Positions 29,904 through 32,857 of a DNA stretch of 64,000 bases are shown here, in pieces. The notes beneath the pieces were generated by a model. That model was not told the origin of the DNA and did not search any database. It saw only the letters and a program-made list of their open reading frames with translations. Each line of letters starts with the position of its first letter. The first letter of the stretch is position 1. The position numbers were made by a program, and so were the translations under genes. Location of the stretch: NCBI RefSeq assembly GCF_003966955.1, contig NZ_AP019367.1, positions 1,550,001 through 1,614,000 of the forward strand, read 5' to 3'. This stretch comes from Parolsenella catena. GTDB taxonomy: Bacteria > Actinomycetota > Coriobacteriia > Coriobacteriales > Atopobiaceae.

Positions 29904-30980
29904 TTAGTAGCGGTTGCCACCGCGGTAGCCGCCGCGGTCGTTGCCGCCGCGGGAGTCACGGCCGCCAAAGCCGCCGCGGTCGTTGCCGCCGCGGTAGCCG
30001 CCACGGTCGTTGCCGCCGCGGAAGCCGCCACGGTCGCCGCCGCGGGAGTCACGGCCGCCAAAGCCGCCGCGGTCGTTGCCGCCGCGGTAGCCGCCGCGGT
30101 CGTTGCCGCCGCGGAAGCCGCCACGGTCGCCGCCGCGGGAGTCACGGCCGCCAAAGCCGCCGCGGTCGTTGCCGCGGAAGCCGCCACGGTCGTTGCCACC
30201 GCGGAAGCCGCCACGGTCGCCGCCGCGGTCGTTGCCGCCGCGGAAGCCGCCACGGTCGCCGCCGCGGGAGTCACGGCCGCCAAAGCCGCCGCGGCCGCCA
30301 CGGTCACCGCCGCGGTCGCCACCGCGGAAGCCGCCTCGGCCGCCACGGTCGTCGCGCTTGCCGCCAAAGCCGCCGCGCTCCTCGCGGTCCTCGTCCAGGC
30401 CGAGGGCCACGAGCGGGTCAATCACCTTGTCGAGAAGGGCGATGAGCTGGGCCATGTCGTCCACGCCAAGGCCGGGGACGAGGTCCTCGCCCTTGCGCTC
30501 GAGGGACTCGGCGCGCTCGATGGCGTCCTCGTCGGCCATGATGACGACCTTGCGCATGTCGGGCTCGGCCGGCTCGACGCGAGCGACGATGTCGTTCTTC
30601 TCGGCCTCGGCCATCATGGAATCGAGCTCGCGAAGGCGCATGCCGAGAAGCTCGGACATCTCCTTCTGCTCCATCTTGGGCTTGAGCTGCAGGAGCTTGA
30701 GCGCGCGCACGAGAGCGCTCGCCTTGCCACCCTTCTCCTCCTGCTCGCGGCGCATGACGGCGCGACGGCAGCGCAGCAGGCGGGCGGCCTTATTGGCCTT
30801 GTCGAACAGGACGTCGTTGGCGTCGGTCTGCTCGGCAGCCGCATCCTCGGCCTTGGGCTCGGAAGCCTCGGCCTCGGCATCGTTCTCGGCGTCGTTCTCG
30901 ACGGCCTCAACCTCGGCCGTCTCCTCCACGACCTCGGTCGTGGTCTCGTCTAGCATCTCGTCATTCTCGAACTGGGACAT
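29904..30980 (-). CDS. Winged-helix (MarR-like) protein with RGG-repeat tail
   Basis: 358 aa. The second of two ATGs (30980) is chosen because AAGGAG is 5 nt away from it. Residues ~1-55 are very acidic. Residues ~60-165 look like a MarR-type winged helix (ALKLLQLKPKMEQKEMSELLGMRLRELDSMM...NDIVAR). The last ~150 residues are a Gly/Arg/Asp repeat (RGGFGGRDSRGGDRGGF-type units). RGG tails generally bind RNA and can drive condensation. This combination suggests a nucleic-acid-binding protein, possibly with RNA. Its target is unknown. Confidence 0.75.
   Translation of the reverse strand: MSQFENDEMLDETTTEVVEETAEVEAVENDAENDAEAEASEPKAEDAAAEQTDANDVLFDKANKAARLLRCRRAVMRREQEEKGGKASALVRALKLLQLKPKMEQKEMSELLGMRLRELDSMMAEAEKNDIVARVEPAEPDMRKVVIMADEDAIERAESLERKGEDLVPGLGVDDMAQLIALLDKVIDPLVALGLDEDREERGGFGGKRDDRGGRGGFRGGDRGGDRGGRGGFGGRDSRGGDRGGFRGGNDRGGDRGGFRGGNDRGGFRGNDRGGFGGRDSRGGDRGGFRGGNDRGGYRGGNDRGGFGGRDSRGGDRGGFRGGNDRGGYRGGNDRGGFGGRDSRGGNDRGGYRGGNRY
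29905..30356 (-). repeat. Tandem GGxRGG-coding repeat
   Basis: About 450 bp of near-perfect direct repeats encoding GGNDRGGFRGG, GGNDRGGYRGG and GGRDSRGGDRGG units. Repeats are nearly identical at DNA level, so the tract is likely length-variable between strains. Confidence 0.9.
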
Positions 30981-31169
30981 CATGTCTCCTTCTTGCGCCG
31001 TCCATGGCGCTCGCTTGGCGCGTCCTCGCGCCCCATGCCGGATTCCTCAACTCAGATCATCTATGTCATTCGTCTCTTTGCCCCTCCCGGGGCGCCCGGC
31101 ACCAGCCGACTAGTTTAAGGCCCAAGCTGGGAGAACGAGGGCGCACTCCCACATTCACCGAAACGCCAA

Positions 31170-31239: not shown

Positions 31240-32736
31240 CTAATCCTGGTGATAGGTGGAGAGGAAGTCCGCAAGGTCGTCCATGCACTCGGCGAGGACC
31301 TCCATGCGCGGCAGGTACACGACGCGGAAGTGGTCCGGCTGCTCCCAGTTGAAGCCGCCACCACGCGTCACGAGGATCTTCTTCTCGTGCAGCAGGTCGA
31401 GGGCAAACTGCTCGTCGTCATGGATGTTGAACTTCTTCGCATCAATCTTCGGGAAGATGTAGAACGCCGCCTTGGGCTTCACGGCCGTGATGCCGTCGAT
31501 CTCGTTGAGCGCGCGATACACGAAGTCTCGCTGGTCGCACACGCGGCCGCCCGGGCGCACGTATGTCTCGACGCTCTGGTAGCCTCCAAGCGCCGTCTGC
31601 ACGATGGACTGCGCCGGCACGTTGGAGCAAAGGCGCATGTTGGAGAGCATGTTCACGCCCAGCAGGAAGTCGCTCATGCAGCGGGTATTGCCGGACAGGA
31701 CCATCCAGCCGATGCGGTAGCCGGCGATCATGTGGCTCTTGGACAGGCCGGAGAACGTGACGCACGGAAGGTCAGGCGCGAGCGAGGCAATCGAGACGTG
31801 CTCCACGCCATCCATGCACAGGCGGTCGTAGATCTCGTCCGAGAAGATCATGAGCTGGTGACGGCGCGCCACTTCCACGATCTGCTCGAGGACCTCGCGC
31901 GGGTAGACGGCGCCCGTGGGGTTGTTGGGGTTGATGATGACGAGCGCCTTCGTGCGGTCAGAGATCTTGGACTCCATGTCGGCGATGTCGGGATACCAGT
32001 CGGCTTGCTCGTCACACAGGTAGTGGACGGGATGGCCGCCGGCAAGCGTGGCACAGGCGGTCCACAGCGGGTAGTCGGGACTGGGGATGAGGATCTCGTC
32101 GCCGTCATCGAGCAGGGCGTGCATGGACAGCTGGATGAGCTCGGAGACGCCGTTGCCCGTGTAGATGTGCTCCATCTGGACGTTGGGCAGCCCCTTGACC
32201 TGGGAGTACTGCATGATCGCCTTGCGGGCGGAGAACAGGCCGCGCGAGTCCGAGTAGCCCTCGCACTCCGTGAGCTGCTGGCGCATGTCCTTCACGACCT
32301 CGTCCGGCGTGCGAAAGCCGAACGGCGCAGGGTTGCCGATGTTGAGCTTGAGAATGCGCTCGCCCTCGGCCTCCATGCGGGCGGCCTCGTCAACGACGGG
32401 GCCGCGGACGTCATACAGGACGTGGTCGAGCTTTGAGGACTTCTTGAACTCTCTCATAGTGCGCTCCCTCTCAGTATGAACTTGAACTTGGACACGAGGC
32501 TTGGCCGCAGCGACGTCCTGCTGGCCCGCAAGCCACTCGGCCGGCACGCCCAGAAGCCCGGCAAGCGTCCCAAGTGCCTCGCGGCGCGGCGTCACCTTGC
32601 CACTCACATATTGGCTGAGCTGGCTCTTTCCCAGCTTTTCCCCACGCTCGGCCGCCATGCGGACAAGGTCTGCCTGCTTGAGATGCGCCTTGCCCATGGC
32701 CTGTCTGAGGCGTTCCGAGAACTGCGACTGCTCCAT
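31240..32736 (-). CDS. XRE-type regulator fused to AlaA-like aminotransferase
   Basis: 498 aa from ATG 32736 (SD GGGAGGAG). Residues 5-70 are a Cro/CI-type HTH (LRQAMGKAHLKQADLVRMAAE...KSQLSQYVSGKVTP). A linker spans ~71-93, and residues 94-498 are a complete fold-type I aminotransferase close to AlaA/YfbQ (NPNNPTGAVYP; SDEIYDRL; SGLSKSH with PLP lysine K333). An internal ATG at 32457 (residue 94) has its own SD (GAGGGAG), so a stand-alone 405-aa enzyme may also be made. The enzyme half probably makes alanine from pyruvate and glutamate. The fusion suggests a PLP- or substrate-sensing autoregulator, analogous to MocR proteins but with an unrelated DNA-binding domain. Confidence 0.9.
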   Translation of the reverse strand: MEQSQFSERLRQAMGKAHLKQADLVRMAAERGEKLGKSQLSQYVSGKVTPRREALGTLAGLLGVPAEWLAGQQDVAAAKPRVQVQVHTERERTMREFKKSSKLDHVLYDVRGPVVDEAARMEAEGERILKLNIGNPAPFGFRTPDEVVKDMRQQLTECEGYSDSRGLFSARKAIMQYSQVKGLPNVQMEHIYTGNGVSELIQLSMHALLDDGDEILIPSPDYPLWTACATLAGGHPVHYLCDEQADWYPDIADMESKISDRTKALVIINPNNPTGAVYPREVLEQIVEVARRHQLMIFSDEIYDRLCMDGVEHVSIASLAPDLPCVTFSGLSKSHMIAGYRIGWMVLSGNTRCMSDFLLGVNMLSNMRLCSNVPAQSIVQTALGGYQSVETYVRPGGRVCDQRDFVYRALNEIDGITAVKPKAAFYIFPKIDAKKFNIHDDEQFALDLLHEKKILVTRGGGFNWEQPDHFRVVYLPRMEVLAECMDDLADFLSTYHQD

Positions 32737-32786
32737 GCGCTCCTCCCGCGGGCATTGGCCCAAGACCATTTGTTCCGTCACCGTAT

Positions 32787-32857
32787 GTTCAATCTAAATT
32801 GAACTTTTGCATTGGGAAGTTCAATTCAAGGCTCAGAGTAGCACATTGAATTGAACT
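32787..32857. promoter_or_regulatory. Operator cluster upstream of XRE-aminotransferase gene
   Basis: GTTCAAT-N4-ATTGAAC (32787-32804) is followed by AGTTCAATTCAA (32818-32829) and its exact complement TTGAATTGAACT (32846-32857) across 16 bp. The repeated GTTCAAT half-sites lie 50-120 bp before the regulator start and before the divergent dehydrogenase promoter. They are the natural candidate binding site for the XRE domain. Confidence 0.75.

Follow-up and report, generated by a model that had tools for sequence, protein, structure and literature searches.

A gene on the minus strand of the window (the whole 64-kb stretch of DNA that was analysed) joins a DNA-binding domain to an aminotransferase, which raises the question of whether a metabolic enzyme may also be the regulator of its own gene. 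An earlier note on this DNA had suggested as much, proposing an autoregulated sensor of alanine, pyruvate or glutamate.

Architecture and distribution of the fusion gene

The fusion gene runs from an ATG at 32736 to a stop at 31240 (31240..32736, minus strand) and encodes a long form of 498 residues in one frame, with a strong Shine-Dalgarno sequence (SD; GGAGGAG, 32740..32746) ahead of the ATG; the same fusion was present at all 80 named loci. The frame, the Pfam matches and the alignment to AlaA confirmed the note's description of a single-frame protein consisting of a Cro/CI helix-turn-helix (HTH), a linker and a complete PLP enzyme with K333. The domain search that it had proposed returned HTH_3/HTH_31 and Aminotran_1_2 in one protein, an architecture that recurs in relatives. 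The neighbouring minus-strand gene (29904-30983) encoded a protein of 359 aa whose N-terminus was acidic and whose C-terminus extended into a long tail of RGG / GGFRGGNDRGG repeats, such a tail being unusual in bacterial proteins.

The Cro/CI-type HTH occupied about residues 4-70 (32527..32727, minus strand), with KSQLSQYVS (37-45) as recognition helix. Taken by itself, the window protein matched HTH_31 (E = 1.3e-4) and HTH_3 (E = 2e-4), both just below the curated cut-offs; together with its relatives it matched the HTH_3, HTH_31 and HTH_19 classes, HTH_3 being found at E ≤ 1e-3 in 29 of 31 members. A profile built from 21 relatives matched phage CI repressors (E = 8e-18), and in the predicted AlphaFold model the domain formed five helices (pLDDT 90-96) with a lambda-repressor-like arrangement. 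Relatives, profile match and predicted fold together secured the assignment as a real HTH of Cro/CI (XRE) type. The nearest HTH with a solved structure was that of TP901-1 CI (3zhm, 5a7l, 6tri), and a fold search brought no gain over the sequence-based matches. A BurrH match in the profile search, with no stretch that passed alone, was regarded as an artefact of repeat proteins. Across fused relatives, the recognition region was near-invariant (KLGKSQxSQYVSGKTxPR), and dN/dS values of 0.24-0.36 across genera indicated purifying selection on the HTH, which is therefore translated. These values and the frames conserved open in relatives ruled out an untranslated 5' segment, one of the findings that the earlier note had named as fatal to its proposal.

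The HTH was followed by a variable linker (residues about 74-93; 32458..32517, minus strand), predicted to be disordered (pLDDT < 50) and poorly conserved: the region equivalent to residues 71-93 spanned 12-86 aa among fused homologues with a mean identity of 18%, and its dN/dS, except in the comparison with the closest relative, was saturated or reached about 0.6 or more.

The remainder of the protein (residues 94-498; 31243..32457, minus strand) matched Aminotran_1_2 (E = 3.7e-55) and had E. coli AlaA (4cvq) as its best solved relative (E = 7e-164), to which it aligned without gaps from Met1 to the end, M94 corresponding to AlaA Met1 and the catalytic K333 to AlaA K240. Equivalents of the active-site residues named for E. 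coli AlaA (PMC4094517), namely the catalytic and substrate residues Y15, R18, Y68*, Y129, N, D, Y, K240 and R378, were kept in 124 of 124 fused homologues, Tyr15 and Arg18 being invariant, save for R378, which was found in 122 of 124 and fell in an alignment gap in the other two. Judged from these residues, the enzyme part is an apparently intact AlaA-type alanine:glutamate/pyruvate aminotransferase, and a degenerate enzyme serving as sensor was ruled out by the invariance of the active site. The NCBIfam alanine aminotransferase model PRK08363 gave the window protein a score of 357.9 against a cut-off of 534. As AlphaFold modelled the enzyme part poorly in places (mean pLDDT 68, pTM 0.49), the model was used for the HTH and the linker disorder only.

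The distribution of the fusion was followed within the Actinobacteria in two overlapping genome sources, which yielded about 105-112 distinct fused genes overall. Literature searches found no paper describing an XRE HTH-AlaA architecture; the CDD name PRK13355, 'bifunctional HTH-domain containing protein/aminotransferase', presumably denotes it, as an annotation that the searched libraries did not return. The fusion was present in most genera of the order (search of 60 relatives), the frame being open from HTH to enzyme in all fused genes. Strong same-order matches in a 396-genome sample of the phylum were fused, one locus (L051) having masked or missing sequence at the HTH position, and the matches examined from other Actinobacteria were unfused AlaA of about 57% identity or less. 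A scan of GTDB genomes with the HTH only retrieved 477 relatives, and the best 80 of these 477 were all AlaA fusions, 79 from Coriobacteriia or unnamed actinobacterial bins and one from Bifidobacterium thermophilum; genera among these 80 included Olsenella, Collinsella, Slackia, Enorma and Thermophilibacter. The protein occurred in 20 of 61 sampled Bifidobacteriaceae genomes (18 fused, 2 unfused), and the Bifidobacteriaceae fusions nested within the Coriobacteriia set in an enzyme-only tree, which weakly suggests acquisition by transfer. The same tree placed an unfused alaA from the same family (L033, genome G011) among the fused genes, so that the HTH was lost there. At L033, HTH and operators were gone together and the apparent gene start was the former internal ATG.

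Upstream half-sites and the predicted promoter

The palindromes that the earlier note had pointed to upstream of the gene were present as two perfect inverted repeats within 32787-32857. On the minus strand, this region contained four putative operator half-sites, one lying over the -35 and spacer (GTTCAAT, 32850..32856), one at the predicted transcription start (ATTGAAC, 32819..32825) and two further downstream (GTTCAAT, 32798..32804; ATTGAAC, 32787..32793). A predicted extended -10, TGCTACTCT (32835..32843), followed the pattern TGnTAnnnT, which 91 of the 111 distinct upstream regions contained. A consensus promoter scan returned no sigma-70 match on the gene strand, and the placement of the promoter is based on conservation.

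These half-sites were strongly concentrated at the fusion gene. The four copies of GTTCAAT/ATTGAAC in the window all lay upstream of it, as did every one of the three copies of the 9-mer AATTGAACT in its own 1.8-Mb genome. The 230 bp upstream of 44 fused genes held 147 copies, compared with 2.2 expected from dinucleotide shuffles; each of these 44 genes had at least one, and at least one site was found at all 79 named loci whose upstream DNA was complete. Conservation refined the half-site to AAATTGAACTT, and site density reached 16.7 per kb upstream compared with 0.17 per kb inside the enzyme region. In the set of 40 genomes, once an outlier was left out, the exact 11-mer gave 43 matches, of which 39 were located at the fused gene. 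The 11-mer was absent from seven genomes without the fusion, and the motif was found neither upstream of nine unfused alaA genes, L033 included, nor upstream of the two unfused Bifidobacteriaceae genes. Overall, the sequence comparisons essentially confine the sites to this gene, and a conserved footprint that goes together with the HTH would point indirectly to sequence-specific DNA binding by that domain.

Genome G018 had 11 scattered AAATTGAACTT matches, far above any relative, which may reflect a high AT content of that genome or a broader regulon. A wider regulon was considered and set aside, the off-locus sites that were fetched being in coding sequence or by unrelated genes, with no recurring target seen. 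About one gene in ten (L020, L025, L047, L101, L103 and others) also carried, ahead of the internal start, an ATTGAAC site within its linker; at 0.94 per kb in linkers against 0.17 per kb in the enzyme region, some of these may be internal operators.

The spacing between neighbouring sites followed multiples of about 10.5 bp in any orientation (vector strength 0.52, n = 273; no p-value is claimed, because the species are related), and the half-sites varied in order and orientation from species to species, as a fixed palindrome would not. The sites flanked the conserved extended -10 (TGnTAnnnT), being commonest at the presumed start of transcription and at positions farther downstream of the -10, and many of the genes also had an upstream site over the -35/spacer region. 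The TP901-1 CI operator OL, AGTTCATGAAACGTGAACT, contains an AGTTCA half-site (PMC4941734), as does its OR half-site AGTTCACG (PMC7250872), and this AGTTCA core is the one derived here from conservation alone. The upstream repeats are thus probable operators, and the proposal of the earlier note that the fusion regulates itself through them gains strong support from comparative genomics.

Internal start and the predicted enzyme-only form

A second start lay inside the frame. The ATG of M94 (32455..32457, minus strand), which corresponds to Met1 of E. coli AlaA in the 4cvq alignment, was preceded by an internal SD, AGAGGGAG (32464..32471), and would begin a predicted enzyme-only form of 405 aa. 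Both elements were conserved in relatives: an in-frame ATG (rarely GTG) with an SD right before the AlaA domain was found in 42 of 44 Coriobacteriia genes, two lacking it, and in 80 of 80 named loci. Every conserved internal start matched the SD over 4 nt or more, compared with 28% of other in-frame ATGs, the window's own 4-nt match being among the weaker ones.

The residues overlapping the internal SD varied (QRS, TKG, QE, KE), which indicates that it is the nucleotides that are kept. When codons were resampled with the amino acids fixed, 53.7 of 105 distinct genes were expected to match the SD over 4 nt or more, and all 105 did; arginine within the SD window was encoded by AGG in 83% of cases, compared with 4.6% elsewhere in the same genes. 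Such codon choice is evidence for selection on internal initiation, and with the conserved start it makes it probable that long and enzyme-only forms are both produced. The conserved SD and rare-codon patterns represent a clear case pointing to two products of one bacterial gene. The earlier note had held that the regulatory reading would fall if only the 32457 start were used; instead, both starts appear to coexist, HTH and internal start being conserved alike.

Among the 18 Bifidobacteriaceae fusions, 9 had no internal start and can evidently do without the short form; these loci (L164, L166 and L173-L179) kept HTH and operators and had lost the internal start codon. Relative to homologues, the window gene had diverged less at synonymous positions in its enzyme portion than in its HTH portion, a difference that would be consistent with stronger translation of the former.

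Proposed mechanism and comparison with known systems

The reading that we consider likely is that of a self-regulating enzyme, whose long form represses its own gene only, whose enzyme-only form is also made, and whose most likely signal is the state of substrate or cofactor. The long form would consist of an intact AlaA-type aminotransferase to which a flexible linker attaches an XRE domain resembling that of TP901-1 CI, and an AlaA dimer of long forms would bring two HTHs to paired AGTTCAATT half-sites on one face of the DNA. The variable, helically phased arrays would fit such a dimer gripping two half-sites at several spacings. The half-sites so bound would bracket the -10 of the gene's own promoter and repress transcription of the fusion gene, repression being the outcome predicted from sites at the -10 and transcription start. 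From the same mRNA, the second ribosome-binding site and the start at AlaA Met1 would yield the enzyme-only form, which could pair with the long form in mixed dimers expected to bind DNA more weakly.

E. coli AlaA is a dimer, with an N-terminal arm that forms part of the dimer interface; this arm contains Tyr15 and Arg18 and, in the presence of a bound substrate mimic, covers the active site in fully ordered form (PMC4094517). The HTH would be carried on an arm of this kind, which would order over the active site with bound substrate, and for this reason substrate or cofactor state is the most likely signal. By analogy with the E. coli structure, sensing of alanine, pyruvate or glutamate is plausible. 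What the sequences show is the fusion, the intact active site, the restriction of conserved sites to this gene and a conserved internal start with selection on its SD; direct binding, repression, mixed dimers and the ligand we infer. In its most specific version, the proposal is that, in Coriobacteriia and some bifidobacteria, a housekeeping alanine aminotransferase captured a phage-CI-type HTH and that the enzyme reads the occupancy of its own active site by way of the substrate-ordered arm and represses only itself, with the enzyme-only subunit tuning the response through mixed dimers; this version we hold tentatively, judging it slightly more apt to fail than to stand.

The same footprint of operators and fusion would be expected, and would fit equally well, if no ligand were involved and the long form repressed its own promoter according to its concentration, the enzyme serving as dimeriser and cargo. 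The long, variable and disordered linker, which argues against rigid allosteric coupling, favours this explanation, but the AlaA arm orders on ligand through a segment whose Tyr15 and Arg18 are invariant here (PMC4094517), though the enzyme needs these residues anyway; we regard it as possible, if on the doubtful side. Activation of its own promoter by the HTH in some states, as part of a mixed positive and negative switch or by itself, would be compatible with the upstream site over the -35/spacer in many genes, but is unlikely given that the commonest sites lie at the transcription start or downstream of the -10, where a bound protein blocks RNA polymerase. It is very improbable that a different regulator binds the TTGAAC sites and that the fusion HTH acts elsewhere, as the motif is essentially limited to the fusion locus genome-wide, is missing upstream of genes that lack the HTH, and includes AGTTCA, the half-site recognised by the nearest HTH that has been characterised. 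Least credible of all is an ordinary AlaA made from the 32457 start only, with the 5' segment untranslated: the conserved internal start and SD and the natural unfused alaA of the same family (L033) would suit it, but it is contradicted by the HTH dN/dS (0.24-0.36), the open frame in every fused gene, the strong SD at ATG 32736, the invariant recognition-helix residues and the occurrence of operators exactly when the HTH is present.

Read as a self-regulating enzyme, the fusion resembles the MocR/GabR/PdxR regulators, in which a GntR HTH is linked to a class I aminotransferase-like fold-type I PLP domain (PMC5320631): in both, a linker connects an HTH to a PLP domain of fold type I. Membership in the MocR/GabR family was rejected, as the class I aminotransferase fold was present but no GntR domain was among the Pfam matches. 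The fusion has a Cro/CI (XRE) HTH where MocR has a GntR winged helix; its PLP domain is an AlaA homologue with conserved catalytic residues, more than an aminotransferase-like sensor; and it appears to control its own gene only, with an internal start that predicts the enzyme alone. If the proposed reading is true, the fusion would represent a second, independent route from a PLP enzyme to a transcription regulator, combining an XRE domain with an apparently working enzyme, and its regulon would apparently be one gene. The setting is that of gut and oral bacteria, whose regulation is little known.

Compared with E. coli AlaA (4cvq), the fusion adds the N-terminal HTH and linker, and a putative operator array at its own promoter. 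The likeness to TP901-1 CI, by sequence only, lies in the closest HTH, the AGTTCA half-sites and a flexible linker to an oligomerising C-terminal part; in the fusion, however, this part is the AlaA enzyme and not a CI dimerisation/oligomerisation domain, and the half-sites are more variably spaced. PutA and BirA are autogenous trigger enzymes, in which an N-terminal DNA-binding domain on an intact metabolic enzyme represses the enzyme's own pathway. The fusion resembles them in that an enzyme which looks intact carries a DNA-binding domain and has putative operators at the promoter of its gene, but it differs in its folds and pathway, in an apparently single-gene target and in a predicted separate enzyme-only form.
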